Positions 84 through 23,183 of a DNA stretch of 49,380 nucleotides are shown here, piece by piece (position 1 is the stretch's first letter; the number at the start of each line of letters is the position of its first letter). A program made the position numbers and the translations under genes. The DNA lies in IMG/VR virus record IMGVR_UViG_3300030419_001400, positions 1 through 49,380 of that record; one strand, given 5' to 3'. The stretch comes from a virus. Below the pieces are notes generated by a model. That model was not told the DNA's origin and searched no databases. It worked only from the letters and a program-made list of their open reading frames with translations.

Positions 84-575
84 ATGACTTGGTTTGATTT
101 AGTTAAAAAAGAAGAGTGGGATTTTATTTTCACTGATGGAGAAAATAAGCTAAATAAGGTTAGACATTTAGATTGGAATAAACTTACATCTCAAAGTAAA
201 GAAAAAGTAATTGATGGATATATTAATTTTTGGATAGAAGAACACCCTGATGATGTTGGTAGTCTTCCACCAGGATTTAATTCTTTAGATTGGGATATAG
301 AGTGTATAGATGGTGTATGTAAAAAACCCTCTGATTGGGATAATAACCATTATACATTATCAGATACTGATTCTTTTAGTATTATTCTTTATAATGATAG
401 ATATCCTATGATTACTGCATTAGTTCCCAAAGATAATAAAATTTACCCAATTGGTGAAGGTAAGGCTAAAGAATGGATGATGACTAAATTAAATATGAAC
501 CATTTAAAAACTGAAAAACCTAGCAATATTATGGTAGAAGCAGCATTATTAAAATTGATGGAGTTTGAAAAATGA
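84..575 (+). CDS. Unknown protein with N-terminal W-tag (MTWFDLVK)
   Basis: A 163-residue protein of unknown function. It opens with MTWFDLVK, the motif shared by about 20 proteins in this window. The rest is acidic and aromatic, with no signal peptide, membrane segment or recognised catalytic motif. Its stop overlaps the start of the next gene by four bases (ATGA), suggesting translational coupling. The first 24 bases of the gene are identical to those of the next gene, which points to duplication or exchange of the tag segment. I infer from the tag a possible role as a virion-internal protein, not from the body sequence. Confidence 0.75.
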   Translation: MTWFDLVKKEEWDFIFTDGENKLNKVRHLDWNKLTSQSKEKVIDGYINFWIEEHPDDVGSLPPGFNSLDWDIECIDGVCKKPSDWDNNHYTLSDTDSFSIILYNDRYPMITALVPKDNKIYPIGEGKAKEWMMTKLNMNHLKTEKPSNIMVEAALLKLMEFEK

Positions 576-925
576 CTTGGTTTGATTTAGTTAAATCTTC
601 AGAAATGAAGGAATTTGAAATGCTTGCTGAAAAGTATGCAGATAAAGGGGATATGATTCATTTAGACTATCTTAGAAAGAAACATGGAAAGAAAAGTAAT
701 GAGTTCTATAAAGCTTTAGAAACACAAATAGAAGATGCAGTAAGTGAAGAATGGTCTTCTATTTCTGATATTATTAAAATATTAAGAGATAAAAATCCAG
801 GATTAAAAGATACAGATGAAAACTTAACAGCTTTTCTTAGAAAGAGATTAAATGATATGAATATTCAAACTAGAAGAGAACCAGCTCCCGGAAGAACAGG
901 AATGAAAACTTATTATAAGGTGTAA
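572..925 (+). CDS. Unknown protein with N-terminal W-tag and possible C-terminal winged helix
   Basis: A 117-residue protein starting MTWFDLVKSS. After the tag comes a charged helical region. The last ~60 residues (WSSISDIIKILRDKNPG, then a segment ending KTYYKV) have the helix-rich then basic beta-like layout of a winged helix-turn-helix, so DNA binding is possible but unproven. It overlaps the upstream gene by ATGA and ends two bases before the next start. It shares its first eight residues and their DNA with the preceding gene, but the bodies differ. Confidence 0.7.
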   Translation: MTWFDLVKSSEMKEFEMLAEKYADKGDMIHLDYLRKKHGKKSNEFYKALETQIEDAVSEEWSSISDIIKILRDKNPGLKDTDENLTAFLRKRLNDMNIQTRREPAPGRTGMKTYYKV

Positions 926-927
926 TT

Positions 928-3243
928 ATGGAATTATTAAAAGGACTAGGTGTAGGTAAAGAAATAGGAACTGAGCAAACAGCTCAAAAACTATGGATGA
1001 AATTCTTAGGTAGATTTAATTATAAACCAGACCAAGCATTCCCTGATAATATGACTAAAGGAACAAATAGAATTACAGGCAATGTTAAAGCTGGAAGAAA
1101 AACAAGCATTGTGAATCATTTATTTAATCCTACATTTATAACATACACTTATGCTGATTTAGAACATGGTATTCCTTTGTATACTAGAACTAGAGGTACT
1201 ACTGCTGGTGATTTAGCTTGTTGGTCAGGAATTATTGGAATGAGAGATGTAGTCGGTAATAGATTTCCAACTGCAGACCCAAAGAAAACAGAAATTAGAA
1301 GAAAAACAGAAGAGGGCCGTTCAATGGTTGGTGAAACCATTAGAGCAATAGACATTCTAGAAAGAAAAGGTGAAAAATTTACTGGTGATATGCCTCCTCC
1401 TCAATGGATGGATGAATTTAAAAGCATAGCAGAAATGGAAGATTGGCTACAGGAAAACTATCCTGAATATCAAAAATGGTTAGTTGAAAATTTACATCAG
1501 CCTATAGAAGCAGAAGGGTTTTTATATGATTTAAATATATCAAAAGATAGAGCGGCCTTTGTTAAGAGAGTAGAAATTCTAATTAAAAAAGAATATCCAG
1601 ATTTATTTGATAAAGTATTAGATGATGCTGTTCAAATTGATAATGATAAATGGCAAATTGTAGTGTTAGCTAATAAAGGTATGATTCCTCATATGGTAAA
1701 AAGAGGATTTATTCCATTAGAAAAAAATGATGCTTTTAATAGAATTATTAATTCTAGCAAAACTTCTAATTTTGTGAAAGAAGCACTAAAAAATGTTAAA
1801 TCAGATGGCGGTAAAATATCTGAAAAAAGTGCATATTATATTAGACTCCCCAATGGAACTACTTTAGACGAATGGGAAGCAACAAAAGAAAAGTGGATGG
1901 ACACTTTAACAAACGAATATACAGGAGTTAATCCCATGTTTGATGATATAAAGAAAGAAGATAAGAAAAAATGGTATGATATTTTAAAAGCACCAGAATA
2001 TGAAGACAGAGATGAAGAGGAACAAAAAGATTCCGGTAGTGCTAAAAGGCCTAAAGTACCAGAAAAAGTAGGCAGTTTAGAGGAGAGAGAATTAGGAAGA
2101 GGAGAAGTCTTTGATGATGATTGGAAGACTGAAACTGGTATAGATACTATTACAGGTAAAAGAAAAGATGCTACTGGTGTAGAAAGAGATAGAGGTTATA
2201 CTGGCACAGATTCTTTATGTTGCACTAAATTAAAAGAAATATTAAAATGGTACATTGAAAAAGCAAGGCCAGGTATATCTAAGGGTGTAGTAGATAAATA
2301 TTTAGAATGTCATCAAATAGAAGCTGATGTTCCTACTGAACAATATCTTGTTATAATGGGTGGTGGAAATGAGCATGGTGTTGAAGATGAAGAATTATTT
2401 AAAATTGATGTAACAGAAACATCAATATTCCACAGATGGGCAGGAGAAGGCCCTATTTTACCTAAAGAGATATGGGAAGATAAAAAAGGAGGTTTTGGTG
2501 CTCCTCCAACTGACGGTGCTTCAATTAGACAATGGTGGGATTGGTGTATTAAAGAACAAGTTAAACATTCACCCACAACCCCAAGAAGAATAGGCGAAAG
2601 GGGAACAGTAGAAATTGATGGTGAAGAACATTCATTATCAACTGCAGAAAGATTTGATGATATTGAATTAACACCAGCAGAAAAAAGAAGGTTGAGAAAA
2701 GAAGCAATTGCTGTATGGATAGGTAAAGGTAATAAAAATCCTGAAAGGTCAAGATTAGAACAAAGTAAAATGGCGCAATCGGAGCCTGAATTATATGCAA
2801 TGTTTATGGGAACATCTTTAATATCTGATACCGGAAAATTAACTCTTGCAGAAATGAAAGCAAATACAAAAATGAGAGAAAGGCTTTGGGATTATGAAGA
2901 TGAAGTAAGCAGAGTAATAGCTGACAAGAAAGGAACACAGTTTAAGCCAATAGACAGAGGACATGATAAAATAGACGCAGATTGGGGATTAGAAGACTAT
3001 GAATTTTCTGCAACTGGAACCTATAAAGAAATGATTTTATGGATAGAAGAAGGAGAACCCAACTGTAAGACACTATTAGATATTATGGAAGAAAGGGATT
3101 GGATGAGAAAAGTTGAAGTAAAAGATTGGAGGAAAGATGACCCTCCTAATGAAGTAATAGGCGTTCCTATGTTAGAACATAACGATAACTTTATTCCAGG
3201 CCCAGAAATAATTAAGTATTTTATTAAGGTGTTTGGTAGATGA
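928..3243 (+). CDS. Large unknown protein (771 aa)
   Basis: A 771-residue gene preceded by GGTG four bases before its ATG. I do not recognise a family. The N-terminal ~120 residues are glycine- and threonine-rich and non-acidic. The middle (about residues 360-420) is a charged, low-complexity linker rich in D, E, K and R. The rest is acidic and tryptophan-rich. There is no membrane segment, signal peptide, Walker motif or nuclease motif I can identify. It lacks the N-terminal W-tag of its neighbours. Its last codons overlap the next start. It could be a minor structural or internal virion protein; that is only inference from context. Confidence 0.7.
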   Translation: MELLKGLGVGKEIGTEQTAQKLWMKFLGRFNYKPDQAFPDNMTKGTNRITGNVKAGRKTSIVNHLFNPTFITYTYADLEHGIPLYTRTRGTTAGDLACWSGIIGMRDVVGNRFPTADPKKTEIRRKTEEGRSMVGETIRAIDILERKGEKFTGDMPPPQWMDEFKSIAEMEDWLQENYPEYQKWLVENLHQPIEAEGFLYDLNISKDRAAFVKRVEILIKKEYPDLFDKVLDDAVQIDNDKWQIVVLANKGMIPHMVKRGFIPLEKNDAFNRIINSSKTSNFVKEALKNVKSDGGKISEKSAYYIRLPNGTTLDEWEATKEKWMDTLTNEYTGVNPMFDDIKKEDKKKWYDILKAPEYEDRDEEEQKDSGSAKRPKVPEKVGSLEERELGRGEVFDDDWKTETGIDTITGKRKDATGVERDRGYTGTDSLCCTKLKEILKWYIEKARPGISKGVVDKYLECHQIEADVPTEQYLVIMGGGNEHGVEDEELFKIDVTETSIFHRWAGEGPILPKEIWEDKKGGFGAPPTDGASIRQWWDWCIKEQVKHSPTTPRRIGERGTVEIDGEEHSLSTAERFDDIELTPAEKRRLRKEAIAVWIGKGNKNPERSRLEQSKMAQSEPELYAMFMGTSLISDTGKLTLAEMKANTKMRERLWDYEDEVSRVIADKKGTQFKPIDRGHDKIDADWGLEDYEFSATGTYKEMILWIEEGEPNCKTLLDIMEERDWMRKVEVKDWRKDDPPNEVIGVPMLEHNDNFIPGPEIIKYFIKVFGR

Positions 3244-3422
3244 GGGCTTGGTTTGATATTATTAAAGTTGCAACAGCAGTTACTACGGGTTCAACATATG
3301 GTGGAGAATCAAATGAAGCAACGGATGCATTGTTTAATATAAGTTATGGAGAAGGCTTAGAGGAAAAAGATTGGGAGGAATGGATGCGTGGTAAAGAAAC
3401 CAACAAAGAAAAAGGCAAATAG
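3240..3422 (+). CDS. Small protein with W-tag (MRAWFDIIK)
   Basis: A 60-residue protein starting MRAWFDIIKV, a one-residue-longer variant of the shared tag. The middle is small-residue rich and the end is strongly charged (EEKDWEEWMRGKETNKEKGK). Its ATG overlaps the stop of the upstream gene, and its 3' end overlaps the next gene by 35 bases in another frame. The function is unknown; the tag may account for a large share of what it does. Confidence 0.6.
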   Translation: MRAWFDIIKVATAVTTGSTYGGESNEATDALFNISYGEGLEEKDWEEWMRGKETNKEKGK

Positions 3423-4542
3423 ACCAATTAAAGCTAAGGGCAGTTCTGCTGTTCAAGAGTTTGATTATTCTAAGTTTCAAACAATGTTTGATGCTTGGAA
3501 ACAACAGTGTGGTGCTAGTGGTGCTAAAATAGGAATGACTTCTGGTGCTTCATTATTAGATGTTATTAAGCAACATGGTATTGCAGCCAGACCTTATACT
3601 AAAGATAAATTAAACAGAGAGGAGGGTGCTGTAACAATAGTTGAATTGCTAGAAGAGTGGGATAATGACGCTACAATTCTAGAAGAAGTAGATGTTTTAG
3701 CATTAGATAAAGTAATTTCTAAATTAGATAAACTTAGAGATAGTAAAGCAGACCCTAGAAATATTAAATTCACAGTTCCTATTCCTGGTGAAGTAGATGA
3801 AGATACAGGAGATTATGATGAAGACGATACAACGATAGTATATGGACATTATAGAACTCCTGATTATATTAAATATAGAAATATATTAGCTGATATTCCA
3901 GGTTCAAAAGTAAATAAAGAAACTGTAGAGGCGGCTAAATCTCATTGGTATGAAGAAGGTAGTAATGGTAAAAATACAGCTAAACCCCCAATGTGGCAAG
4001 CACTGTTTGCTACAGGAGATGGTGATATAGTTTCAACAGGGTTATTTAAAATATGTCAAGAAGCTAAAAAATTAATTAAAGATGTTAAAATAACTAATCT
4101 AAAATTAAAGGTAGACGATGATAATTTAGGATTATTAGCAAAAGATTTATTTGAAATTCCATCTGTTAAACGATGGTTACTTCAACAAGTAGGAACTCAG
4201 ACAACAATAGGCCCAGGAATAGACCCTAAAACAAAACATTGGAGAGATAGACCAATGCATAGAGAAATAAGTTCCCAAAAATTTGGGGTAAAGGGTTTAG
4301 CACAAACAGATTTTATTAAAGAAGCAGCTGATTTTGATAAATATGTAGGAACAATTGAAACATTTCAATTAGATATTACAAGAAGACAAGTTAGAAAATT
4401 AGCAACATTAACTGGTATTTGTAAAAAATATCCCGGTAGAGATGTAGTATATCATATAAGTAAAGATGCTGTTAAGAAAAAGAAAAAGAAGAAAAAGACA
4501 AAGGGAGTTAAAAAATCATGGCAAGAAATAATTGGAAACTAA
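3388..4542 (+). CDS. Unknown basic-tailed protein with C-terminal W motif
   Basis: A 384-residue protein. I accept the GTG start at 3388 because GGGAGG (3373-3378) lies nine bases upstream and no better ATG is nearby. The first 20 residues are Lys-rich. The body is mixed alpha/beta and unrecognised. The C-terminus has a lysine run followed by KKSWQEIIGN, which looks like the shared N-terminal tag moved to the C-terminus. The last 25 bases overlap the next gene, whose own tag lies just beyond. DNA-binding or capsid-internal roles would fit the basic ends but are inferred. Confidence 0.7.
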   Translation: MVKKPTKKKANRPIKAKGSSAVQEFDYSKFQTMFDAWKQQCGASGAKIGMTSGASLLDVIKQHGIAARPYTKDKLNREEGAVTIVELLEEWDNDATILEEVDVLALDKVISKLDKLRDSKADPRNIKFTVPIPGEVDEDTGDYDEDDTTIVYGHYRTPDYIKYRNILADIPGSKVNKETVEAAKSHWYEEGSNGKNTAKPPMWQALFATGDGDIVSTGLFKICQEAKKLIKDVKITNLKLKVDDDNLGLLAKDLFEIPSVKRWLLQQVGTQTTIGPGIDPKTKHWRDRPMHREISSQKFGVKGLAQTDFIKEAADFDKYVGTIETFQLDITRRQVRKLATLTGICKKYPGRDVVYHISKDAVKKKKKKKKTKGVKKSWQEIIGN

Positions 4543-4769
4543 TATTAAAAGATGAAGTTTCTAATGAAACTAGAACAATGAAAATATATTCTGAGGTTAA
4601 AAGAAGATTTCCTCACCTTTGGGAAGAAGCACAGCAGTTGACTGGAACTGGAGAAGTAGCAACATTAGATTCAATAGTTTTAAGGACAATAAGAGAAAAC
4701 TTAGATAAACATAACATTGTAGAACTAGCTAAAATTGCAGGTGAAAACTATATTTTGAGGGATTATTAA
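4518..4769 (+). CDS. Small helical protein with W-tag variant
   Basis: An 83-residue protein starting MARNNWKLILKDE, where W-x-x-I-L-K of the shared tag is shifted by three residues. The rest is predicted largely helical (SEVKRRFPHLWEEAQQL and a second helix near residue 55). It overlaps the preceding gene by 25 bases and the next start by one base (TAATG). No known domain recognised. Confidence 0.65.
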   Translation: MARNNWKLILKDEVSNETRTMKIYSEVKRRFPHLWEEAQQLTGTGEVATLDSIVLRTIRENLDKHNIVELAKIAGENYILRDY

Positions 4770-5146
4770 TGGGTTGGTTTGATTTAGTTAAATCACAAGA
4801 GTCTTTAGCAAAATGGTGGACTGATTGTATGAGACGCGGATATTTTATAGATATGATTTATATGGATGACCCAAAGTTTCCTAAAGGAAGACCTTGGTAT
4901 ATAAATGCACGAACTGGAAGATATAGAATTTTTCCTCAACAAAATGAAACTGATTGGTCAATAGAACAAGAAAAGGCAGGAACTCCTAAAAGCAAGGATA
5001 ATCCCTATTATGCTCCAAGAGACAACCCTGATGAATATGCTGACTTTATGGTAAACGACCAAAATAATTTAATATTTTTAGATGGAAATTTAAATTTTTG
5101 GTATCCTATCTTACAGCGGTATTATGACTTTGTAAATGATAGATAG
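4769..5146 (+). CDS. Unknown protein with W-tag (MGWFDLVK)
   Basis: A 125-residue protein starting MGWFDLVKSQ. The tag DNA differs from that of the genes at 84 and 572 at only two of the first 24 bases. The remainder is rich in Tyr, Trp, Pro and Asp, as in a small beta-rich domain, but I cannot assign a family. It overlaps the upstream stop by one base. Confidence 0.7.
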   Translation: MGWFDLVKSQESLAKWWTDCMRRGYFIDMIYMDDPKFPKGRPWYINARTGRYRIFPQQNETDWSIEQEKAGTPKSKDNPYYAPRDNPDEYADFMVNDQNNLIFLDGNLNFWYPILQRYYDFVNDR

Positions 5147-5160
5147 AAGGAGAAAATAGA

Positions 5161-5817
5161 ATGATTAAAAGAAAAAGATGTAAAATGTGTAATCACGAAA
5201 ATCGTGAAGAAATAGAAGTTCAATTGGAAACAATGACTATAACTGCTGATGCAGTAGATAGGGAAAATAATTGGCCTAGTGGAACTACTGCTAGACACCA
5301 AAGAAATCATATGGGCGACTATTATGATGCTTCAAACCCTAGATGTAAGATATGCACACATGAGTTAAGACCTTTAATTGAAGAGCAATTGAGTGAAGGT
5401 GATGTGACTCCAGATTTAATTGCTAGAATGGCTGATTGCACAGAAGAACAGGTAAAGCGGCACATGAGGAAACATTTACAGCCGCTAGTGCAGAAGTCGG
5501 CGGCAAACATTATAGCCGTAAAGGAAGTGGATGAAGTTGAGTCTTTGACTAAGATACTCAACAGGTTAGAAGAAAAGTTAGACATATTATTCGACCAAGA
5601 TGAAATGCATCCTAAATATGTTGATAGTTTAACGAAACTAGCTAAAGAAGTAAGAGAAAGTTTAAGGTATTTATTAGAATTTAAAGGAAAGTTAGTTCAC
5701 AAGAGACAAGATACTATTATTGTAGCACAAATGCAAGTAGTTCAAGAAGTATTAGCACAAAATCATCCTCAAGTTTGGCTAGATGTTAAAGCAAAGATGG
5801 AGGAGAAATTACAATGA
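5161..5817 (+). CDS. Tandem zinc/HTH protein, candidate terminase small subunit
   Basis: A 218-residue protein with an AAGGAG site ten bases before its ATG. Two tandem modules share exactly the same spacing: C7-x2-C10-x35-H46-x3-H50 and C62-x2-C65-x35-H101-x3-H105. The His pairs lie in helices that look like recognition helices (EEQVKRHMRKH). This suggests a zinc-stabilised helix-turn-helix duplicated once. Residues ~120-218 are long amphipathic helices suited to oligomerisation. DNA-binding head plus oligomerising tail is the plan of small terminase subunits, which recognise viral DNA for TerL. However, it lies 10 kb from terL, so a transcription factor is an alternative. It carries no W-tag. 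Confidence 0.6.
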   Translation: MIKRKRCKMCNHENREEIEVQLETMTITADAVDRENNWPSGTTARHQRNHMGDYYDASNPRCKICTHELRPLIEEQLSEGDVTPDLIARMADCTEEQVKRHMRKHLQPLVQKSAANIIAVKEVDEVESLTKILNRLEEKLDILFDQDEMHPKYVDSLTKLAKEVRESLRYLLEFKGKLVHKRQDTIIVAQMQVVQEVLAQNHPQVWLDVKAKMEEKLQ

Positions 5818-5981
5818 GTTGGAAAGATATACTAAAAGAATATGGAATACCATCAGAACATAGGAAGAAAACGCCTTATATTAAAGATGGGTTTCCGCAT
5901 TGTTGTGGAAAAGAAATGGAATTTGTAGAAGGTAAAGACGGTGACGGACATCGTTGTGTTGTATGTGGGGGGAAAATATGA
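5814..5981 (+). CDS. W-tagged zinc-ribbon microprotein (55 aa)
   Basis: ATG at 5814 overlaps the upstream stop as ATGA and the frame closes at TGA 5979-5981. The 55 residues begin MSWKDILKEYG and continue into a compact zinc ribbon with HCCGKE and, 17 residues later, RCVVCGG. It is essentially a tag fused to a single zinc knuckle. Its stop overlaps the next gene's start (ATGA). Tag, coupling at both ends and the Cys pairs make it credible despite its size. Confidence 0.7.
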   Translation: MSWKDILKEYGIPSEHRKKTPYIKDGFPHCCGKEMEFVEGKDGDGHRCVVCGGKI

Positions 5982-6220
5982 GTTGGGAAGTTATACTAAA
6001 AGATACTAGAAGTAAACTTAAGGAAATGTTCAGTCAGGATGAAGATATAGTAGAAAGATATGATTCATCACCTGATGAAGCAAAAGAAATGATAGACACA
6101 CTAATTCGACGGGCTGAACACAATAGGGGGCAATGGTCTACAAAACCTGGAAGTTATGGAAGTAATAGAATACTAAATATAAAAAAGACTATTTACTCTA
6201 TACTTGGATTAGCGGATTGA
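5978..6220 (+). CDS. Small W-tagged protein (MSWEVILK)
   Basis: An open frame extends back to 5954, but I place the start at ATG 5978. That gives MSWEVILKD, puts a purine-rich GGGGGGAAAA site just upstream, and overlaps the previous stop. The product is 80 residues, charged and helical, with a basic stretch near TLIRRAEHNRGQW. No domain recognised. Confidence 0.7.
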   Translation: MSWEVILKDTRSKLKEMFSQDEDIVERYDSSPDEAKEMIDTLIRRAEHNRGQWSTKPGSYGSNRILNIKKTIYSILGLAD

Positions 6221-6225
6221 ATAAA

Positions 6226-6486
6226 ATGAGTTGGGAAGAGGTAATAAAAGACAATAAGGAACTGGTTAATGCCATTCAAAAATTTGTAGATGACATAACA
6301 GAACCACACTTAGCCATGATTAAGGTTTGGTCTGAACTTAAGAAGAACATACCTGAAGAAGAAATGCCTAGATATGAGGAATTAATGGAACAATTTGGAC
6401 ACACAATATTAGAAGCAGGTAAAATGGCCGGAGATTTAGTACACGCTTACAACGCACATAATAGATTTAGTGAGGACTTCCGATGA
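6226..6486 (+). CDS. Small W-tagged helical protein (MSWEEVIK)
   Basis: A TTG nine bases upstream could extend the frame, but ATG 6226 gives the tag MSWEEVIKDN exactly at the N-terminus, so I prefer it. The protein is 86 residues, almost wholly helical and acidic. Its stop overlaps the next ATG (ATGA at 6483). Function unknown. Confidence 0.7.
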   Translation: MSWEEVIKDNKELVNAIQKFVDDITEPHLAMIKVWSELKKNIPEEEMPRYEELMEQFGHTILEAGKMAGDLVHAYNAHNRFSEDFR

Positions 6487-6617
6487 ATTGGGAAGAAATA
6501 CTTAAAAAGAAGAAAAAGGTTGGCGATAAACGCTTTGGCCGAAAAAATACTAAATTAGACAGAAGGCTATATAATAAGCGTAAGGCTAAGAAAGAAATTG
6601 AGGAAGAATTACAATGA
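6483..6617 (+). CDS. Very basic 44-aa W-tagged protein
   Basis: ATG 6483 overlaps the preceding stop, and TGA lies at 6615-6617. The product starts MNWEEILKKKKKVGDKR and is dominated by Lys and Arg along its whole length, closing with a short acidic helix. Composition suggests nucleic-acid binding. Tag plus polycation is what one would design for an internal, DNA-condensing capsid protein, but that is inference. Confidence 0.65.
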   Translation: MNWEEILKKKKKVGDKRFGRKNTKLDRRLYNKRKAKKEIEEELQ

Positions 6618-6694
6618 TTCAATATATAGTAACTCACCCTAGAAATAAAATATCAAGTGGTGTATTGAGTTATATATTAAGTAATAGTAGGTGA
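6614..6694 (+). CDS. Possible 26-aa ORF
   Basis: ATG 6614 overlaps the upstream stop (ATGA) and the frame closes at TGA 6692-6694, giving MIQYIVTHPR then a short hydrophobic stretch. It fills the 80-base gap before the next tagged gene. It has no tag and no domain. Coupled start position is the only support. Confidence 0.3.
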   Translation: MIQYIVTHPRNKISSGVLSYILSNSR

Positions 6695-6699
6695 ATAAA

Positions 6700-7002
6700 A
6701 TGAATTGGTTTGACATAATTAAAGGGAAATATATATCCCGCAAGGTACTTAGAGAAATTAAAGAAGCTATAGAAAGTGTTGATGGAGTTACTATTGATAG
6801 TCTTACATTTAGTAAAAAAACACAACATTTAAAATATAAACTCACTTATGATGGGCCGGACACACCTACTAATAAACCAGTTAAATTTGTATTAACAACA
6901 GGTGGTAGAAATCTAGGAAGAATAGGTGGTATTCGCGCTAAGATAAGGCAAAACATACGCGTAGCCTTAGAAAGAAAAGACACATTCATTACGGAGTGGT
7001 AA
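6700..7002 (+). CDS. Small W-tagged protein (MNWFDIIK)
   Basis: I start at ATG 6700 rather than the in-frame GTG 6691, because GGTGA (6690-6694) then serves as the ribosome binding site and the tag MNWFDIIKGK is N-terminal. The 100-residue protein has a helix followed by alternating strands and a basic C-terminal helix (RAKIRQNIRVALERKD). It could bind nucleic acid. No family recognised. Confidence 0.7.
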   Translation: MNWFDIIKGKYISRKVLREIKEAIESVDGVTIDSLTFSKKTQHLKYKLTYDGPDTPTNKPVKFVLTTGGRNLGRIGGIRAKIRQNIRVALERKDTFITEW

Positions 7003-7003
7003 T

Positions 7004-8669: not shown

Positions 8670-10658
8670 ATGAGTTGGACTGTTTTACTTAAGGCATTGC
8701 CTGACCCTGCTTCTTTATCGGGGTTTCTTGATAGTGAAGAAGGTTTAACTCATTTAATCACACAAGCAAAAGGTGAAGATAAAAAAAACATTATTAGAAC
8801 TAGAAATAAAGCCAAAACATTATCAGAGGGAAAAGACATTCCATCAGGATTAACGGTTGAAAATGTTCAAGAAAATGCTACTAAATTAGTAAAAGAATTA
8901 AATGCAATTATTAAAGAGATGAATAAAAAATCTCAATCAGGTTATTCTTTGGAAAATAAATTAAATAGTATTATTGAAGAAGAAGATAGAGAGGGATTAA
9001 TGGAATTTATAGGTAATTCTCCTGTTAATAAATGGCCTAATAAAACTAGAATAAATAAAACTAATCTATTAAATAAAAATAAAAAGGCAATTTTAAATTT
9101 TATAGATATAAAAGATAAAGAGATATTTCATTTTAAAACTGAAGATTTTTCTCTAACTGCTAAAAAACCAATAAACGATGAAAATTGGGATAATAAAATT
9201 AATTCAATTAAATCTAAATTAGAAAACACAGAAGTTAATATAGAAGGTACTGATGATATAACTATTACTTTTCCTAAAATAACAAGTTGGCCTGACATGA
9301 AAGAAGTGTTAGATGCTACACACATGAGAGCATCTGGAAAAGGAAAGTCTAAAGCATCAGAAAAAGAAGATTATATTTTGTTTGAAAAGAGTGGAAAATT
9401 TATTAAATCTCCTTTATTAGAATTATATATTAAACCTGACACAACTCAAAAAGTAAAAGATAGAGTTAGAGATGCAGAGATTAAAAACTATACAAACACC
9501 ACAGAAACAAAAGAACATGCATTAAAGTATTTACAATTGTTAACAACTTCTAGCTTTAGAAAAGAATCTATTTTTATACCTGTGCCTAAAATACAACAAG
9601 GAAGTAAGAAAGTTGTAAAGAATGTAAAAATACAATTATTAGGTAGTGCCTTAAGACCAAGACTTTCTGCTTCCTTAGCAGCAGTAATAAAAACTCAAGA
9701 TTTTAATTTAGAAAAATTAATGCAGGAAGGTTCTATTGCAACCGATGTTAAATACTTTGGCCCAAGACTTAGAGCAATACTAACATCTACTGAAGATGTT
9801 AAAATTGGTAATGTAACAGCAAAAGAAATACAAGTATTAAAAGATAAGTATAAGGATAGTAATGAGGAACTTCCAATATTTTATAAGCGGTTAGATAATA
9901 AGGAACAAAGAATATTTAAAGAAATAAATAAAACATTAATTGGAGCTAGACCAAACCTATTTAGCTTAGAAGAAAAAGAAATGTTTGAAGAATTAGCAGG
10001 ACAAAATCCTAGAGCAGTTTCTCGAAAATTATCAGAATATTATAATACAGAAGTATCTACTAGATTGTCTAGATTAGTAGAAAAAATAATGCGAACAGAA
10101 GAACCCTTTAGTGAAATAGAAGGCGCATATAAATTTGACGAAAAGAAAATTAAAGGCGTAAAATATGATGACTTAAGGGAATTAGTTTATGAGCTTAAAT
10201 TACTTAGACAGAGTTTAACTGGAGAAGTAGAAGAAAGTATAGAGATTGATTTAAAGGATAGTTTAAAACTATATACTAAAGGATTTAAAGTAAATGAAAC
10301 AGGTGGTGCTAAACCAGCAGACATGATTCACTTTTTATATGTATTAGATTTATATTATGGTAGAACTGGTTTTAAATCTGTAGCTAAAAGGTTTAAAAAT
10401 GGAGAGGCGGAAATAGAAGAATTATTAGAATCTGCCGAGCAAAACTATAATGCTATTATAGATGGGTTTGTAGAACAAGTTAAACTTAAAATAGATGATA
10501 TTTTAGAAAATAAAGAAACATATCAAAGTGCTACAACTTATTTAGAAGGAACGAAAAAGGATTCAAAAAGAACAGGTTATAGAACTTATATATTATTTGA
10601 TAAATTAGAAGAGCAAGGTTTAATTCAATCAATAACGGAAACAACGGTGAAAGAATGA
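8670..10658 (+). CDS. Large W-tagged unknown protein (662 aa)
   Basis: A 662-residue protein starting MSWTVLLKALPD, with GTGATTAA just before the ATG. It is Lys/Glu/Ile/Asn-rich and mostly helical, with no membrane segment and no motif I can link to a polymerase, nuclease or ATPase. Its stop overlaps the next start (ATGA). It and the following 848-aa gene are the largest unknowns in the pre-terminase region and may act as a pair. If the tag is a capsid-loading signal, this would be a large internal or ejected protein. Confidence 0.75.
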   Translation: MSWTVLLKALPDPASLSGFLDSEEGLTHLITQAKGEDKKNIIRTRNKAKTLSEGKDIPSGLTVENVQENATKLVKELNAIIKEMNKKSQSGYSLENKLNSIIEEEDREGLMEFIGNSPVNKWPNKTRINKTNLLNKNKKAILNFIDIKDKEIFHFKTEDFSLTAKKPINDENWDNKINSIKSKLENTEVNIEGTDDITITFPKITSWPDMKEVLDATHMRASGKGKSKASEKEDYILFEKSGKFIKSPLLELYIKPDTTQKVKDRVRDAEIKNYTNTTETKEHALKYLQLLTTSSFRKESIFIPVPKIQQGSKKVVKNVKIQLLGSALRPRLSASLAAVIKTQDFNLEKLMQEGSIATDVKYFGPRLRAILTSTEDVKIGNVTAKEIQVLKDKYKDSNEELPIFYKRLDNKEQRIFKEINKTLIGARPNLFSLEEKEMFEELAGQNPRAVSRKLSEYYNTEVSTRLSRLVEKIMRTEEPFSEIEGAYKFDEKKIKGVKYDDLRELVYELKLLRQSLTGEVEESIEIDLKDSLKLYTKGFKVNETGGAKPADMIHFLYVLDLYYGRTGFKSVAKRFKNGEAEIEELLESAEQNYNAIIDGFVEQVKLKIDDILENKETYQSATTYLEGTKKDSKRTGYRTYILFDKLEEQGLIQSITETTVKE

Positions 10659-13781: not shown

Positions 13782-14321
13782 ATGAATGAATGGAAAGATG
13801 TAATTAAAAGAAGAAGAAAAAGGCGTAAATCACCTGAACCATTTAATCCTTTTACTGGAGAAGGAACTAAAGAATCTAAACCAGAAACAGAAGCAGAATG
13901 GAGAGCAGAAGTATCTTCTGAGGAAAAACAAAAGCGTGAAGAAAGATTAGAAAAAATTAAAGACTCTCGTAAAAAGCATATAAGAGCTAAAACAGTATCA
14001 AGATTTAAAGGAGGTACTGGAAAACCTTCAGCCACTGGTGGAATATCTAGAGACTTAACTCCAACAACTAAATGTGCAATGTGTGGTAGAGGATTAACTA
14101 TAGCTGCCGAAAAAGATAGAGTTAAATCATATAAAAGAAAAACCACAAAGGATGCAAAAGAGGAAACTAAAAGATTAACATATTGTTATACTTGTGCTAA
14201 AGAAATTGGACTGGATAAGTTTGAAGTGTTTGATAGACCCAATACACATGAAATAGCAGATGCAATGAAGATTAGAAGAGAATCAATTAAAAGGAAAAAG
14301 AAAAAGGAGGAAGATAAATGA
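13782..14321 (+). CDS. Basic W-tagged zinc-ribbon protein
   Basis: A 179-residue protein starting MNEWKDVIKRRRKRRK: tag followed at once by a polybasic stretch. Low-complexity charged residues follow to ~90. Then comes a zinc ribbon with C98-x2-C101 and C135-x2-C138, and a very basic C-terminus (IKRKKKKEEDK). It looks made for nucleic-acid binding. Its stop overlaps the next ATG. AGGAGGG lies just upstream of the start. Confidence 0.7.
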   Translation: MNEWKDVIKRRRKRRKSPEPFNPFTGEGTKESKPETEAEWRAEVSSEEKQKREERLEKIKDSRKKHIRAKTVSRFKGGTGKPSATGGISRDLTPTTKCAMCGRGLTIAAEKDRVKSYKRKTTKDAKEETKRLTYCYTCAKEIGLDKFEVFDRPNTHEIADAMKIRRESIKRKKKKEEDK

Positions 14322-15215: not shown

Positions 15216-15388
15216 TATTCAAAATGAAAGAGAGGATATGGGAAATAGATTGGGACTATTGGGAAGCGCAAATTGAAGGCTATAATGCTTTAAAAAAGAA
15301 AAAGAAACTTTGGCGCGACCATAAAAATGAGAATAAAGAAATTGTAGATTCAATTTATGAATGGTTTTGGAATGGTGAGGAAGAATGA
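15209..15388 (+). CDS. Small Trp-rich protein (59 aa)
   Basis: ATG 15209 lies seven bases before the upstream gene's stop ends, with GAGG (15201-15204) five bases ahead. The frame closes at TGA 15386-15388, overlapping the next ATG. The 59 residues contain seven Trp (WEIDWDYWEA, then EWFWNGEEE near the end) and a central Lys run. No family recognised; coupling to both neighbours supports it. Confidence 0.55.
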   Translation: MVIFKMKERIWEIDWDYWEAQIEGYNALKKKKKLWRDHKNENKEIVDSIYEWFWNGEEE

Positions 15389-16008
15389 GTTGGAATAATA
15401 TATTAAAAGCTGATGCTTGTGTTTCAGAAACAAAAGAAGTTTTTCATGATTTCTTACAAAAATTAGGCGCAAATAATGAATTATTAGAAGGGCTGAAAAA
15501 TGCTAACGGTGAAGAATTAAGAGAAATGATTGAAGATATTATGAGAACTTCTAAACATGATTCACATAAGCAAGTTTGTAAGAAATTACTACGCAGTTGG
15601 GATATATGTATTTTAGAAGCAGAAAGAGGAACTCGTAATGAATATCCTTATACTGGTGATTGGCAAACTAAACTTGCCTCTGATGTTTCAAAATCATTAA
15701 AACGCACTGAATTACATCCTATTTTTATAGAGTATTTAAGCAATAATTTAACGGAACCCAGAACCTCTAGAGAAATTAATGACATGTTATTTACAGCACT
15801 TGATTTAGAAAATCAAAGAAGGATTGAAAATAAAGGGGGGCAATGGAAAGTTGAACCTGGAAAAATACATTTAACAGAGAATCATAGAAAATTAAGCAAT
15901 AGAATTATTCCTGAAAGAAATACTTTACCACTGATATTAAACCGTCATCCCAATATAGTAAATCTAGGTGGTAAAGGAAATCGAAAACAGTTTGTATGGA
16001 GGGATTAA
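15385..16008 (+). CDS. W-tagged protein directly upstream of terL
   Basis: A 207-residue protein starting MSWNNILKADA. It is mainly helical, with C-terminal basic residues (GNRKQFVWRD). It ends one base before terL starts, and GGAGGGA in its tail serves terL as binding site. Position next to terL makes a small terminase role conceivable, but I see no helix-turn-helix. Otherwise unknown. Confidence 0.7.
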   Translation: MSWNNILKADACVSETKEVFHDFLQKLGANNELLEGLKNANGEELREMIEDIMRTSKHDSHKQVCKKLLRSWDICILEAERGTRNEYPYTGDWQTKLASDVSKSLKRTELHPIFIEYLSNNLTEPRTSREINDMLFTALDLENQRRIENKGGQWKVEPGKIHLTENHRKLSNRIIPERNTLPLILNRHPNIVNLGGKGNRKQFVWRD

Positions 16009-17445: not shown

Positions 17446-17459
17446 GACAGGTGAACATT

Positions 17460-18758
17460 ATGGCGAAAAGGTCTGAACAACTTCAAGAACTGACCAATAG
17501 ACAAAAAGAAATAGAGGATATCGAAGAAAATATGAGTCGAATAGAAGACGATATGAAAACGGCATGGCTAGAACAGCAGCCTATTCGCAGCCATGAAGAT
17601 ATTGTAAAGGATTATGCTGATATTGCAAATATTAATCTTACTAGTGCAAAGGAATCTTTATCAGAATACCCAAAAAAGTATGAAATAGAAGGTAAGGATG
17701 TACCAACTCTAATTAAAGACATGAGAAAATATAGAAGGACTCTTAAGGGCGAAACTAAGGTAGCCTTTACTAATTCTATAGATAATTTAATTAAAGCTTA
17801 TGCAGATTATTTAAACGATTGCATAGATAGTATCTATTGGGTTAAAAAGTATAAATACCCACTTAAACAGATGAACTATAATGAAGACAAGTTAGTAAAA
17901 TTAAACTCTATTACTAAAGAAGAAGACAGAAGAGAAATAATAGACTGCCTTTGTAAATATTGGGAAGCAGAACAAAATAGAAGAGGTTTAAATTATAATA
18001 AAGAATATTCAAGACTAACTAAAGAGATGAAGACCCATAAAAAACAATTCACCAATTTAATTAAACAAACCCCTATAAGTAGTTCGCCAAAGGACACTAT
18101 TAGGAAGGCCATCCTTGATTCTGTTTGTAATAATCCGGGCATCTCTTCTAGACAAATACATGAATCATTACCACAGAAATTATATGATAGGAGTTCACCA
18201 AATATTATAGCAAAACTTGCAAAGGAACAAAATATAACAAATGTTGATGGGGCCTACTATAAAATAAACGATGATATTAAAAAGAACATTTGGGCTTATA
18301 CTGCAGCATTTATTGATTCTGATGGTTATATAACAATGGACAAAAATCATAATCCAAGAGTTGGTTTAGTAGCAACAGGAGATAGAGGAAAGGCTTTCAT
18401 GTTAGAAATGCATAAATCACTAGGAATGGGTAGATTACACTTAGACCAAAAATCACCACAAGACACTAGATTAATAAATAGACTTAACTTTTATTCTGGC
18501 CCAGAAATTAAAAAATTATTAACCAAATGTTTACCACATTTTAAATTAAAGAAAAACAATGCAAATACTTTATTAGAACTTATAAAAATAAAGAAATATG
18601 ATAAGAAAAAAGATTGGTATTCTGTCAGAAAAGATGAATTATTTAAATTGATGAAATATTATAATCATAGTGATAATGCTAAATTTGATTGGGCTGCTTG
18701 GGATATTGATATAGATTCAATTAATAAACTTGAAGAAAATAGTAAAATGGGAATTTGA
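17460..18758 (+). CDS. LAGLIDADG-type protein with coiled-coil and winged helix
   Basis: Start placed at ATG 17460, because GGTGA six bases upstream fits it; an in-frame GTG at 17451 is less likely. Of 432 residues, about 1-200 are helical and coiled-coil. Residues ~208-265 look like a winged helix (DSVCNNPGISSRQIHESLP). Residues 278-291 contain AAFIDSDGY, matching the LAGLIDADG homing endonuclease signature with catalytic-type Asp, followed by the usual ~100-residue alpha/beta domain. One clear motif suggests a homodimer; a degenerate second (FDWAAWDIDID) lies near the end. It sits between terL and portal, as a free-standing homing endonuclease might, or it has been recruited to packaging. 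Confidence 0.75.
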   Translation: MAKRSEQLQELTNRQKEIEDIEENMSRIEDDMKTAWLEQQPIRSHEDIVKDYADIANINLTSAKESLSEYPKKYEIEGKDVPTLIKDMRKYRRTLKGETKVAFTNSIDNLIKAYADYLNDCIDSIYWVKKYKYPLKQMNYNEDKLVKLNSITKEEDRREIIDCLCKYWEAEQNRRGLNYNKEYSRLTKEMKTHKKQFTNLIKQTPISSSPKDTIRKAILDSVCNNPGISSRQIHESLPQKLYDRSSPNIIAKLAKEQNITNVDGAYYKINDDIKKNIWAYTAAFIDSDGYITMDKNHNPRVGLVATGDRGKAFMLEMHKSLGMGRLHLDQKSPQDTRLINRLNFYSGPEIKKLLTKCLPHFKLKKNNANTLLELIKIKKYDKKKDWYSVRKDELFKLMKYYNHSDNAKFDWAAWDIDIDSINKLEENSKMGI

Positions 18759-18763
18759 AAGCA

Positions 18764-18838
18764 ATGTTAATTTCATTAATTAAAAGATTAGCAGAAACAT
18801 ATCTAAATTGGTGGATATATATTTATATGGAGGCATAG
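18764..18838 (+). CDS. Possible 24-aa hydrophobic peptide
   Basis: A short frame (MLISLIKRLAETYLNWWIYI onward) fills the 81-base gap before the portal gene, and its tail contains the portal's GGAGG site (18829-18833). It is amphipathic and could associate with membranes. No ribosome binding site of its own is evident, so it may be spurious. Confidence 0.2.
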   Translation: MLISLIKRLAETYLNWWIYIYMEA

Positions 18839-18839
18839 T

Positions 18840-20507
18840 ATGGCAGAAGAAAAAAGAAGATTTAGTTTAGGTAATTTGTTTAGGAGAAACACTCCTACAC
18901 CAAAAGACCCTAAAATATTTAATCCAGGAATACAAGAAAAATCTACAGATTACATGATTACATCTCCTGTTATATATCATGTAGCACAACAATCAGTTAT
19001 TGTTAGAACTTGTACAACTCAATTAAAAAATGAAATATTTAGACGGGGTTATGTTTGGAAAGAAAAGTTTGCATATAAATGTAGAGAGTGTGGAAATGAA
19101 CATAAACAACCAGTAGAAAAATGTAGTGAATGTAATTCTGTTAGTTTAACTAAACCTAATAAAAAACAATTAAATTATGCTGAAAAACTTATGACTGGTT
19201 ATATAAATAAAGCTGACCAATTATTTATAGATATTTTAAAAGAATTAGAAGATGATTTAAATATTATGGATGATGCATATATTATTTTAAAGAAAGAATA
19301 TTATTTAGATAATACTGGACAAATTAAAATGCATAAAATTAAAGAAATGTTTAGAGGAGACCCAGTAACTATGTCTATTTATACAGATGAAGATGGTGAA
19401 AAAGGCACACATGGATTTACTTGTTTAAATCATAGAGAGCAAATCCATGATGACCCATTCCAAACTTGTGAAGAGTGCAATGCTTCTTTACATCCTGTTT
19501 ATTATGTAAATAGGTGTAATGGAGAAGAACAACATTATTTAAAAGGAGAGGTATTACATTTTAGTAAATATAATCCTAGTAGATTATATGGTTTATCACC
19601 AATACTAACTTTATGGAATCATATTACTACTTTAATTGCTATGGAAAACTATGTAAATTCTTCATACTCTAAAGCTAGAATGCCAAGAGGATTACTTGCT
19701 GTTCAGACTAGAAACATTGATTCAATGAAATCCTTTTGGCGAGGCGTTAAAGAGAAGATGGAACAAGACCCACATTTTATTCCTGTAATGGGTATAGAAG
19801 CAGAAAACGGTAAAGGTTCTATTGAATGGATTAAGTTTATGGATAGCCTAAAAGAAATGGATTATATATCTGTTAAGGATGATTTGAGAGATAGGATTTC
19901 TGCTTTCTATGGAGTAAGTAAAATCTTTATGGCTGATAATACTACTAGCGGTGGATTAAATAATGAAGGTATGCAAATCCTTGTTACTAATAGGGCTGTA
20001 GAAATGGCACAAAATATCTGGAATACTTATGTGTTTCCATTTATAATTAAAGAGTTTGGTATAACAGATTGGACTTTAGAATTACCACCATCTGAAGAAG
20101 AAGATGAAGTAAAGAATATCAGAAAGAGAGAATTAGAAGTTCAAATAGCTGGCGGAATAAAGAACTTAGGGTTTGAAGTTAATATGGATGATAAAGGACG
20201 ATTTACATATACAAAAGAAAAACCTGATATGAAAGGCGGTAAAGGCGGGGGCGGAGGACAAGAAGAGTTCCAAAGAGACCCTTATGCTGGCACTAATATA
20301 GACCAATCACATTTAGGTGAAATGATGGAACAAGGTCAAAGACCAACACAAGAAGAAGCAGGAGTTCCAGCAAAAGTTAAATCTGAACCACCAAAAACAA
20401 GAAATAAACCATCAAGTGTAACTGGCCCTGATAAAAGATTTACAGGATTACCTAAAGAAGCAGGTAATCAGAATGTTGATACAAGAACGGAGAGAAGAAT
20501 ACCATGA
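18840..20507 (+). CDS. Portal protein with two zinc-ribbon insertions
   Basis: A 555-residue portal: dodecameric ring at the head vertex through which DNA passes. Family assignment rests on position after terL, length, and typical segments (LHFSKYNPSRLYGLSP around 239-254 and the C-terminal helical IRKRELE region). Two zinc modules are inserted in the wing: C81-x2-C84/C95-x2-C98, and C195 with C210-x2-C213 and nearby His. The C-terminus beyond ~450 is Gly/Pro-rich and disordered. GGAGG lies six bases before the ATG. The stop overlaps the next start. Confidence 0.88.
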   Translation: MAEEKRRFSLGNLFRRNTPTPKDPKIFNPGIQEKSTDYMITSPVIYHVAQQSVIVRTCTTQLKNEIFRRGYVWKEKFAYKCRECGNEHKQPVEKCSECNSVSLTKPNKKQLNYAEKLMTGYINKADQLFIDILKELEDDLNIMDDAYIILKKEYYLDNTGQIKMHKIKEMFRGDPVTMSIYTDEDGEKGTHGFTCLNHREQIHDDPFQTCEECNASLHPVYYVNRCNGEEQHYLKGEVLHFSKYNPSRLYGLSPILTLWNHITTLIAMENYVNSSYSKARMPRGLLAVQTRNIDSMKSFWRGVKEKMEQDPHFIPVMGIEAENGKGSIEWIKFMDSLKEMDYISVKDDLRDRISAFYGVSKIFMADNTTSGGLNNEGMQILVTNRAVEMAQNIWNTYVFPFIIKEFGITDWTLELPPSEEEDEVKNIRKRELEVQIAGGIKNLGFEVNMDDKGRFTYTKEKPDMKGGKGGGGGQEEFQRDPYAGTNIDQSHLGEMMEQGQRPTQEEAGVPAKVKSEPPKTRNKPSSVTGPDKRFTGLPKEAGNQNVDTRTERRIP

Positions 20508-21100
20508 ATTGGAAAAATGTATTAAAAGCTGAATGGGATGCTAGTGATTCTACACAAGGATTACATGTTACTAAATTTTATATGTTTTTAAAGCGTTGGC
20601 TGGCAGAGGAGCATACTGAGAAATTTTTAGAATATTTCTGGTTATATGAAGACTTAGAATCATTTGAGAGAAGAGATGTTAAAAACTCTCTACAAGCTTT
20701 AATATCAGATACAGGTAGATGGGGACAACCATCAATGAAATATCCAGGTATAGAAATAATACACATGACTGATGATATGATAGCTCTTACTTTTGATGAT
20801 GATAAACATATTAAAGAAAGAGATGAATGGGTAAAACAGACTGAAGAATATAAAGTTCATGTAAAGAATACACGAGGTTATACTCCTTGGTGGGTTAAAA
20901 AGCCACCACACGATTCGGTAATTCAAAGAGCGTATAATAGATTAATGTCTATAATTAAGAAAAGTAAAAATAAAAAAACATTTACTCAAGCTCTTCGCCC
21001 TCCATCGAAGAAAAAGAAGAAGAAGTATGGAATGGGTGCAAGAAGATATACTGGCGGTTTGGGGAAAAGAAAATATAGTAAAGGAGGATATAGTAGATGA
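20504..21100 (+). CDS. W-tagged protein with basic tail
   Basis: A 198-residue protein starting MNWKNVLKAEWD, overlapping the portal stop by ATGA. The middle is rich in aromatic and acidic residues. The last ~45 are strongly basic and Gly-rich (SKKKKKKYGMGARR), probably disordered and nucleic-acid binding. Position after portal is where head-completion or minor head proteins lie, so an internal head protein is plausible. No family recognised. Confidence 0.7.
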   Translation: MNWKNVLKAEWDASDSTQGLHVTKFYMFLKRWLAEEHTEKFLEYFWLYEDLESFERRDVKNSLQALISDTGRWGQPSMKYPGIEIIHMTDDMIALTFDDDKHIKERDEWVKQTEEYKVHVKNTRGYTPWWVKKPPHDSVIQRAYNRLMSIIKKSKNKKTFTQALRPPSKKKKKKYGMGARRYTGGLGKRKYSKGGYSR

Positions 21101-21315
21101 CAAAAACAGTAAAAGAGTTAGAAAAGGAATTAAAGATAGCAAGAAATGCTGAAAGAAATAGCGTTAAAATAACAAAGAATAAAAACTTTGATTATGTAGG
21201 GCCTGACCCAGACTCAGGCACAAAAGAAAGTCCGGCAAGTTCGGAAGTACCAGATTTTATTGGTAAGCCTAAAACTAAAACTAGTAAAAGGCTTCCTGAT
21301 AGTTTACCCTATTAA
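21097..21315 (+). CDS. Small charged protein (72 aa)
   Basis: A 72-residue protein with a short N-terminal coiled coil (TVKELEKELKIARNAER) and a Pro/Ser/Lys-rich, probably disordered tail. It overlaps the preceding stop (ATGA). No tag, no recognised domain. The binding site AAAGGAGG lies just upstream. Confidence 0.6.
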   Translation: MTKTVKELEKELKIARNAERNSVKITKNKNFDYVGPDPDSGTKESPASSEVPDFIGKPKTKTSKRLPDSLPY

Positions 21316-21324
21316 GGTGATTAA

Positions 21325-22842
21325 ATGGATTTTTTAGATGGATTACTTATAAGAGATACATCTCTTATATTAAAAGAAGATAGTCCGTCAGTACAAGATA
21401 AATTATTAGAAAAGGCTAAAGTGCATCAAAACAAACTTAGGCCATTTACAATGTCTGAAATAAAACAACATTTAGATAATGCAAAAGAAAATGTTACTGG
21501 GAATATACAATTAAATAGAACAGAAGCACAACCAGATAAAGATGGCATTATGCCAACAACAACTACAGCAGGTGAAATATTAAAAATAAATGATGCAGTA
21601 ATAATGTCTGCATTATGGCAAATAAAACCTCATCTAAATAAAGAATTATTTAATAAACTTCAAGAAATATTTAAACCTAGAAAAAAATCTAGTATTAAAA
21701 TAAAAGGAATATCTACTGATGAGGAGAAAGTATTTGTTAGATTTTTAGATGCAATGGAAAGAGGCGACACGCTTTCTCCTACACTACAAAATGATATGTT
21801 TGATTTTGGTTTATTAGATGTTAAGTTTTTATTGTTATTACAAGATGTAGGAACAAAAGGAGAGAGAAAACTTCATAATACTATTTATGATAGACTTGTA
21901 AAAATAGAATGGGAAAACAAACAAAAAAAAGTAGTACCGACAGAATTATTTGAAAGGTCTATGCAAAAATTAGAAGAGTTAAGTGGTATTTCTAGACCAG
22001 ATAAAAATTCAATTATAAGAGAATATAAATTACTAAGAGACCAAAAAAACTTATCTGTTGTTGATATAGCAAGGTTAGTTAATACTAAAAAATATAGGTT
22101 TCAAGGACAAACTACTAAAAAGCACTTATCTACAATAACAGATAAACTTAATGAATTATTAAATGATGAGTGGGATAATATATTAAATCTGTTTATGAGG
22201 AATATAGAGATTTTAGATGAATCTACTAATGAATCTTTTACTGAAAAAAAATATGGAACTCAAAATTTAGATGATGAGTTAGTAGCAGAATGGAATAGTT
22301 TAAAAGATAATAAAAATAATAAAACTAGTTATGAAGAAATTAGGGGGAAAAAATATAAATCTGCTATAAAGAAGTTAGAATTATCTTATAACCGAATAAA
22401 TAAATATTTTAAAGCAGCTAGAAGATTAACTCAATTATTAGAAGAAAATACCTTTGTTAGTGAAGATATAGATTATTCTTTAATAGAACAAGAAAAAGAA
22501 TTTCATAATGATTATAAAAATATAAAAGATAACATAGAAGAATATGATAATTATGCTAAGCAAATAAAAGACCAAGAGAAGGCTGCATTACAAAGACAAA
22601 AAGAATGGGAAGCCAAGAAAAAAGAAGCTCAAACAACAGATGTAAGAACTGAAAAGATTCCTATTAAAGATAATAAACAGGTTCAACATCAAAGTAAAGC
22701 TAATAAATTATCAGAAGAAGAAAAAAAACTTCAAATGCACCGCTCAACTAAAGAGAAATCAATAGATGAGTGGTTAAGCAGAATGGGAGTTCAAAAAGAT
22801 AAATTAAAAGAAATATTAGAAGAAAGGAGGAAAAAAGAATGA
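21325..22842 (+). CDS. Unknown coiled-coil protein (505 aa)
   Basis: A 505-residue protein with a textbook AAGGTGATTAA before its ATG. It begins MDFLDGLLIRDTS, which has no Trp. Most of it is helical. A winged-helix-like stretch may lie near residue 235-265 (KNLSVVDIARLVNTKKY). Residues ~390-505 are long charged coiled coil. It overlaps the next start by ATGA. Function unknown; position between portal and protease suggests head assembly. Confidence 0.7.
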   Translation: MDFLDGLLIRDTSLILKEDSPSVQDKLLEKAKVHQNKLRPFTMSEIKQHLDNAKENVTGNIQLNRTEAQPDKDGIMPTTTTAGEILKINDAVIMSALWQIKPHLNKELFNKLQEIFKPRKKSSIKIKGISTDEEKVFVRFLDAMERGDTLSPTLQNDMFDFGLLDVKFLLLLQDVGTKGERKLHNTIYDRLVKIEWENKQKKVVPTELFERSMQKLEELSGISRPDKNSIIREYKLLRDQKNLSVVDIARLVNTKKYRFQGQTTKKHLSTITDKLNELLNDEWDNILNLFMRNIEILDESTNESFTEKKYGTQNLDDELVAEWNSLKDNKNNKTSYEEIRGKKYKSAIKKLELSYNRINKYFKAARRLTQLLEENTFVSEDIDYSLIEQEKEFHNDYKNIKDNIEEYDNYAKQIKDQEKAALQRQKEWEAKKKEAQTTDVRTEKIPIKDNKQVQHQSKANKLSEEEKKLQMHRSTKEKSIDEWLSRMGVQKDKLKEILEERRKKE

Positions 22843-23183
22843 ATTGGGAAAAAATATTATTAAAAGCACATAGCCCTATGTTAGATAAAGCTAGTCCAAA
22901 ACAGAAAAAGAAAGTAAAAAAGATATTACAATCTACTCAACCATCTGAATATATGGGACAAGATTTTACTAAATTAGGAGATTTATTAGATGAATTAAAT
23001 TCCTTAGATGTAAATAAATCTAAAGCTATGCAAAAGAAAATGGAACTTATGGAAGAAACAAATACTGATTTAGTTGCAAGAGCAGCAGAATTAAGAAAAG
23101 ACTATGAAACTCTATACCGTCAATTAAGAGGGATGGTATATCCAAAAAGTAAAGGGGATTTAGGAGAGGAAAAAGATGAGTGA
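22839..23183 (+). CDS. W-tagged coiled-coil protein (MNWEKILLK)
   Basis: A 114-residue protein starting MNWEKILLKAHSP, the last N-terminally tagged gene before the capsid genes. AGGAGGAAAA lies just upstream. After the tag there is a Lys-rich stretch and then long helices. It overlaps the next gene by eight bases. No family recognised. Confidence 0.7.
   Translation: MNWEKILLKAHSPMLDKASPKQKKKVKKILQSTQPSEYMGQDFTKLGDLLDELNSLDVNKSKAMQKKMELMEETNTDLVARAAELRKDYETLYRQLRGMVYPKSKGDLGEEKDE

Follow-up and report, generated by a model that had tools for sequence, protein, structure and literature searches.

Unrelated proteins of an archaeal-type tailed virus share a short tryptophan word with the scaffold end: a candidate prohead-targeting tag

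The DNA analysed here, hereafter the window, is a stretch of 49,380 nucleotides (positions 1 to 49,380 of the IMG/VR virus record IMGVR_UViG_3300030419_001400), whose genes follow the order terminase, portal, S78 protease and capsid. A preliminary description had reported that about 20 of its proteins, unrelated in their bodies and all encoded upstream of the capsid gene, start with one short motif, and had proposed, by analogy with phage T4, that this motif could be a capsid cargo tag. Translation of all 20 starts confirmed the motif: 16 follow the strict form M-x(0-5)-W-x-x-[ILV]-[ILV]-K, and the other four (7758, 13586, 14955 and 22839) are variants of it. These ORFs, together with two further copies of the motif lying among them, are the following:

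84..575, + strand: tagged ORF, MTWFDLVK, 163 aa
572..925, + strand: tagged ORF, MTWFDLVK, 117 aa; family also tagged in other genomes
1972..1989, + strand: WYDILK as an internal tag of ORF 928-3243 (residue 349); WFDLLK stands at residue 354 of a related ORF
3240..3422, + strand: tagged ORF, MRAWFDIIK, 60 aa
4513..4539, + strand: C-terminal motif KSWQEIIGN of ORF 3388-4542
4518..4769, + strand: tagged ORF, MARNNWKLILK, 83 aa
4769..5146, + strand: tagged ORF, MGWFDLVK, 125 aa
5814..5981, + strand: tagged ORF, MSWKDILK, 55 aa, Cys-rich
5978..6220, + strand: tagged ORF, MSWEVILK, 80 aa
6226..6486, + strand: tagged ORF, MSWEEVIK, 86 aa
6483..6617, + strand: tagged ORF, MNWEEILK, 44 aa
6700..7002, + strand: tagged ORF, MNWFDIIK, 100 aa
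7004..7180, + strand: tagged ORF, MTWKSILK, 58 aa
7758..8660, + strand: variant tag MDWFERIRK, 300 aa; canonical tag on homologues in G002 and G006
8670..10658, + strand: largest tagged ORF of the window, MSWTVLLK, 662 aa
13586..13780, + strand: weak variant MRWWKELNR, 64 aa, Cys-rich
13782..14321, + strand: tagged ORF, MNEWKDVIK, 179 aa
14318..14653, + strand: tagged ORF, MKWWDIIK, 111 aa
14955..15215, + strand: variant tag MTWKDIIA, 86 aa, no Lys
15385..16008, + strand: tagged ORF, MSWNNILK, 207 aa
20504..21100, + strand: tagged ORF, MNWKNVLK, 198 aa, directly after the portal gene
22839..23183, + strand: variant tag MNWEKILLK, 114 aa; the family occurs in 14 genomes, and its tag is split in some members (MTWDFYETGEEFILK)

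From the capsid gene to the end of the window no ORF carries the motif, as the preliminary description had also stated. Within-protein shuffles of the window's called proteins gave an expectation of 0.025 strict starts, against 15 observed by the gene caller, a count that omits the 44-aa ORF at 6483 because the caller dropped it. No relatives of the large ORF at 8670 were found in the IMG/VR scan; many of the 17 related genomes described below have a large tagged ORF near -17 to -20 kb. An untagged ORF at 17451-18758, between terminase and the portal ORF 18840 and found in 17 of 17 genomes, looks LAGLIDADG-like by eye in its C-terminal part.

The capsid protein of the window resembles those of Haloarcula tailed viruses, with about 25% identity to HCTV-1 and HVTV-1 (E down to 1e-16), and among the named viruses searched it lies nearest to the Druskaviridae. 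The replication arm of one relative (G001) encodes RFC, PolB and a TFIIB-type zinc ribbon, so that both the capsid protein and the archaeal replication and transcription genes place the group among archaeal Caudoviricetes near the Druskaviridae, in agreement with the archaeal-type label given previously. According to the ICTV, the Poseidoniales viruses of the order Adrikavirales resemble the Druskaviridae in capsid phylogeny and have a genome of 87 kb (PMC13108676). Inspection by eye of the Haloarcula relatives HCTV-1, HVTV-1, HCTV-5 and vir519 revealed neither the tag nor an SWxDI scaffold end. A host assignment from cellular genomes was rejected: only four contigs were found, in MAGs labelled Maricaulis and Thioglobus, and they are probably misbinned virus. 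Three contigs from the MAG labelled Maricaulis sp. IN14 (L242, L243 and L244) encode a 54-70% identical scaffold/protease and are probably misbinned archaeal virus contigs.

A scan with the capsid protein retrieved 80 related contigs, and the motif search over related viral genomes that had been suggested earlier yielded 266 tagged ORFs in 17 genomes of the group, with 6 to 25 tagged proteins per genome. In these 17 genomes, with long relatives treated as circular and genes called by a simple ORF script that makes the counts approximate, 248 of the 598 forward ORFs located at -31 to -4 kb from the capsid gene are tagged; the corresponding counts are 0 of 174 for tail-zone ORFs (Fisher p=8e-35) and 1 of 842 for the replication strand. 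Equal frequency of the motif in tail proteins, which the earlier description had named as an observation that would count against a cargo tag, is thus not seen. One genome has ten further tagged ORFs between -32 and -37 kb, and four genomes together have seven on the downstream side, 3 to 6 kb from the capsid gene, so the position upstream of the capsid gene, exact in the window, is a tendency and not a rule among relatives. Likewise, the motif is N-terminal on the named starts but is also found at the C-termini of three conserved head-module families (in the window, ORFs 3388, 23176 and 26189) and occasionally inside a protein, as in ORF 928. These C-terminal copies and downstream ORFs exclude a strictly N-terminal and strictly upstream reading of the motif. 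In an independent scan of IMG/VR with the tag pattern, 31 of the 40 contigs tested carry the same capsid protein, and in further genomes the picture of the tag was unchanged and control counts were 0. Four long contigs with a single pattern match and no capsid match (G025, G029, G037 and G041) were set aside as unrelated or chance hits. One record of 184733 bp (G024, IMGVR_UViG_3300021958_000021) contains two different capsid genes of this virus group about 91 kb apart and is likely to be two joined genomes.

The same word closes proteins of the head module, in which the following features were located:

23272..23289, + strand: NLLMK|S in ORF 23176-23421, a pattern as in the capsid-protein site
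23368..23418, + strand: C-terminal motif MDWDDIGKMMNKLEGGY of ORF 23176-23421
26189..27397, + strand: prohead protease (Peptidase_S78, PF04586, E=1e-9) fused to a coiled-coil scaffold, directly upstream of the major capsid protein
26231..26248, + strand: FDILK|S ahead of the protease domain, a predicted site of self-cleavage; F15, I17, K19 and S20 invariant in 47 sequences
26687..26701, + strand: FDILK at the protease/scaffold junction; F167, D168, I169, L170 and K171 invariant in 47 sequences
27350..27394, + strand: C-terminal end of the scaffold, MSWNDIHSFVSKYEE, with invariant S389 and W390; AF2 models residues 390-401 as a helix
27394..28791, + strand: major capsid protein (SU10_MCP, E=9e-9; PHROG 24667)
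27478..27495, + strand: NTMLK|S, predicted cleavage site in the N-arm of the capsid protein

The scaffold/protease ends in [ML][SDTE]Wx[DE][IVL], an SWx[DE]I word whose first position is Ile in a few cases, in 17 of 17 genomes and also in dozens of more distant relatives, which ties the tag to head assembly. Although the scaffold half is variable in an alignment of 47 sequences, S389 and W390 are among its few invariant residues, and in an AF2 model of low mean confidence (51) the W word starts a separate short C-terminal helix that follows the long scaffold helix and a loop. The family of ORF 23176, a coiled coil of 75-83 aa present in 14 genomes, neighbours the scaffold/protease, has the same W-word ending and contains N[IL]LMK|SG, and is a probable minor scaffold. 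Between it and the protease lies, in 17 of 17 genomes, an untagged ORF of 837 aa (23639-26152 in the window) with an ATP-dependent DNA ligase domain (PF01068, 3.5e-29); a second ligase is encoded in the replication arm of G001. A third family, that of ORF 3388, occurs in 17 of 17 genomes, and most of its members end in a W-x-x-[IVM]-[ILM] word. The terminal W words of scaffold proteins and cargo would most simply be read as one docking motif.

The second half of the tag recurs at likely sites of head maturation. In relatives, F-x-I-L-K-S stands just ahead of the protease domain and F-D-I-L-K where protease and scaffold join; the capsid-protein site reads N-x-L-L-K-[SAGQT], with K33 invariant in a 10-sequence alignment and also when aligned with HCTV-1 and HVTV-1. 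For comparison, HK97 is cleaved at K103/S104 (PMC10275583). This recurrence of ILK at likely protease and capsid maturation sites supports the idea of capsid cargo. In addition, the body of the small tagged family of ORF 3240 resembles the capsid protein N-arm after its LLK, a likeness that is suggestive only.

Given the motif itself, its genome zone, its copies at the scaffold C-termini and the shared ILK sites, all seen in the sequences, the tag probably acts as an address label by which proteins enter the shell before the DNA is packed. Cargo made from the late operon would co-assemble with the scaffold through its N-terminal tag. The W-x-[DE]-[IL] part of the tag would dock in the assembling procapsid where the C-terminal helix of the scaffold/protease also docks, most probably at the inner surface of the shell. 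The S78 prohead protease would then cut behind the [ILV]-[ILV]-K that ends the tag, as it may do at FxILK|S in the protease itself, at FDILK before the scaffold and at NxLLK|[SA] in the capsid protein. Finally, the mature cargo would be freed inside the head and delivered with the DNA at infection. That the tag targets proteins to the prohead appears quite likely, and that the head protease cleaves at the tag is a reasonable, if less secure, expectation. The explanation as a whole, a prohead-targeting sequence used by a large set of tailed viruses of marine archaea and similar to the capsid-targeting sequence (CTS) of T4, probably removed by the protease and serving a far larger cargo set, seems to us likely.

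The reservation about cleavage comes from the residue that follows the tag: P1' is Ser at the N-site of the protease and mostly Ser or Ala in the capsid protein, but is free after the tag, which makes cleavage there less certain than docking. It could be argued, then, that the motif only docks and is not removed, its ILK likeness being a by-product of a short amphipathic helix, and this agrees with the variants that lack the Lys or have it shifted, as well as with the scaffold C-termini, which keep W-x-[DE]-I without ILK. However, Lys is present at the end of 96% of the non-redundant tags, P1' is not conserved at the junction FDILK either, and split tags (MTWDFYETGEEFILK) retain ILK beside the body while the W lies 10 residues away, suggesting that the tag has two halves that can separate. 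Docking without removal seems the less likely reading. It is improbable that the binding partner of the motif is a non-structural factor of host or virus, such as a polymerase, a membrane or a chaperone, and that the motif marks proteins for takeover functions instead of packaging. Many tagged proteins are indeed small accessory ORFs, and some are effector-like, but the same word ends the scaffold/protease and the probable minor scaffold, and the replication strand, on which genes for takeover should likewise be found, has the single tagged ORF already mentioned.

Signals acting on translation or DNA (a leader, an operator or a repeat) and spread by gene duplication would fit the arrangement of the tagged genes in tandem operons with Shine-Dalgarno sites. 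Searched as DNA, the tag gave about 150 matches in 19 long relatives, always on the strand of the capsid gene, and the reversed DNA pattern gave 0. The 266 tags are encoded by 240 different 18-base sequences using all synonymous codons, which together with the null count of the reversed pattern shows that the signal lies at the protein level, and the bodies behind the tag are unrelated. This codon diversity and the C-terminal copies of the motif, along with its internal ones, rule out a DNA-level signal, to which we give hardly any credence. Chance or a shared full-length fold has even less to recommend it, being contradicted by the shuffle expectation, by the reversed-pattern control and by the number of families, as BLAST sorts the 262 tagged proteins of the 17 genomes into 178 families, including 144 singletons. 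The bodies thus share no common domain, as originally proposed, and a common fold, which had been put forward as a possible refutation, does not account for the motif.

Loading of unrelated cargo into an HK97-fold shell through a short terminal peptide is known from encapsulins, which differ in being non-viral, in using another peptide and in working without protease or scaffold. Among viruses, the internal proteins of T4, which are dispensable accessory head proteins, carry an N-terminal CTS of ~10-20 residues that is removed by the head protease and that moves foreign proteins into heads (PMC9958956, PMC5694885). Both systems have a short N-terminal signal common to several otherwise unrelated proteins (here 266 ORFs in 17 genomes), but the word here is W-x-x-I-I-K, it occurs on 6 to 25 proteins per genome as compared to the few that conserve the T4 signal, the protease is S78 instead of gp21, and the scaffold ends in the same word. 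The tag would thus work like a CTS but is not classified as a T4 CTS, because word and protease family differ. In phage P1, an N-terminal stretch of DarB sends a reporter into the head and the natural cargo is an antirestriction protein; the Dar proteins show no consensus (PMC9024508), in contrast to the clear one found here. SPN3US and phiKZ also have many internal proteins, some of which lose N-terminal propeptides during head maturation (PMC5694885, PMC10052503), but these propeptides are mostly of 100+ residues, are cut after a Glu-type motif and include no short word common to cargo and scaffold. HK97 has the type of protease found here (Peptidase_S78, 1e-9) and a Lys-Ser site like that predicted in the capsid protein (PMC10275583), yet no tagged cargo set is known for it and its capsid protein contains the scaffold as a domain. 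No paper describing the present tag was found in the literature searched, which was largely open-access.

If the proposed prohead targeting is true, the internal proteins that a large group of uncultured archaeal viruses carry, and probably inject, could be listed from sequence alone. They make up more than 100 families, nearly all of unknown function, and would offer a direct source of host-takeover and counter-defence proteins that act on marine archaea. The tag would also be a portable means of loading whose scaffold partner and protease are defined, and would mean that the accessory-protein packaging strategy of T4 either emerged or persisted in archaeal viruses whose protease is of the HK97 type.

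Few cargo functions are recognisable, and the cargo set is hypervariable. Pfam matches among the tagged proteins comprise a PAP2-type phosphatase and zinc ribbons, together with one weak GNAT match and one weak SprT-like match. A tagged ADP-ribosyltransferase-like (ART-like) protein has a YHAT motif, with a weak similarity in the PDB to RNA 2'-phosphotransferases (E=0.25); a single-sequence structure model gave no usable fold (pLDDT 35). The domain of ORF 22839 is joined in one fusion to a larger tagged protein, keeping an IIIK relic. A tagged ORF of 806 aa in G027 (L290:7180-9597) consists of four tandem related units with one tag in front and a Lys before each later unit, and is possibly a polyprotein.

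A homologue of the ART-like protein in G060, a virus with a thermosome, starts with MADAFTAAWNLVK and led to a second form of the tag. The window-type W-tag is absent (0) from eight magrovirus-like genomes, a label that we infer from a thermosome-like gene and synteny; instead, M..AF[DSN]xAWx[LV][LV]K-like starts (AFDxAWxLLK) are found on 1 to 8 of their proteins, among them ART-like and DPPY-motif methyltransferase-like proteins. The scaffold ends of these genomes read GW[RK]xxE (GWRAxE) and share with their own tag only an [AG]W core of loose spacing, a point against the explanation; their sites read F[ILV]LK|[SA] and TDLLK|[AS]. In tag dialect and scaffold end the window differs from the magrovirus-like genomes, and the ART-like cargo bears the local tag dialect in each of the two groups. 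With their own tag, ILK-type sites and a W-based scaffold end, the magrovirus-like genomes offer an independent replicate that supports the capsid-cargo idea. A broader proposal, which may just as well prove wrong as right, is that marine archaeal tailed viruses share a packaging code, with one word per lineage (MSWxDILK or AFDxAWxLLK) placed on the scaffold ends and on a large, fast-changing effector set, that cargo would have to swap its tag to pass from one virus to another, and that each virion would deliver at least a dozen different proteins into the archaeal host. Within the magrovirus-like set, G061 (L347) has several tagged ART-like proteins at 1-6 kb and 13.9 kb (with YHGT, FHGT, YHFT and YYHAT), and the tagged 451-aa ORFs of G062 and G065 and 513-aa ORF of G063 look DNA methyltransferase-like by eye (DPPY motif; C5-MTase-like).
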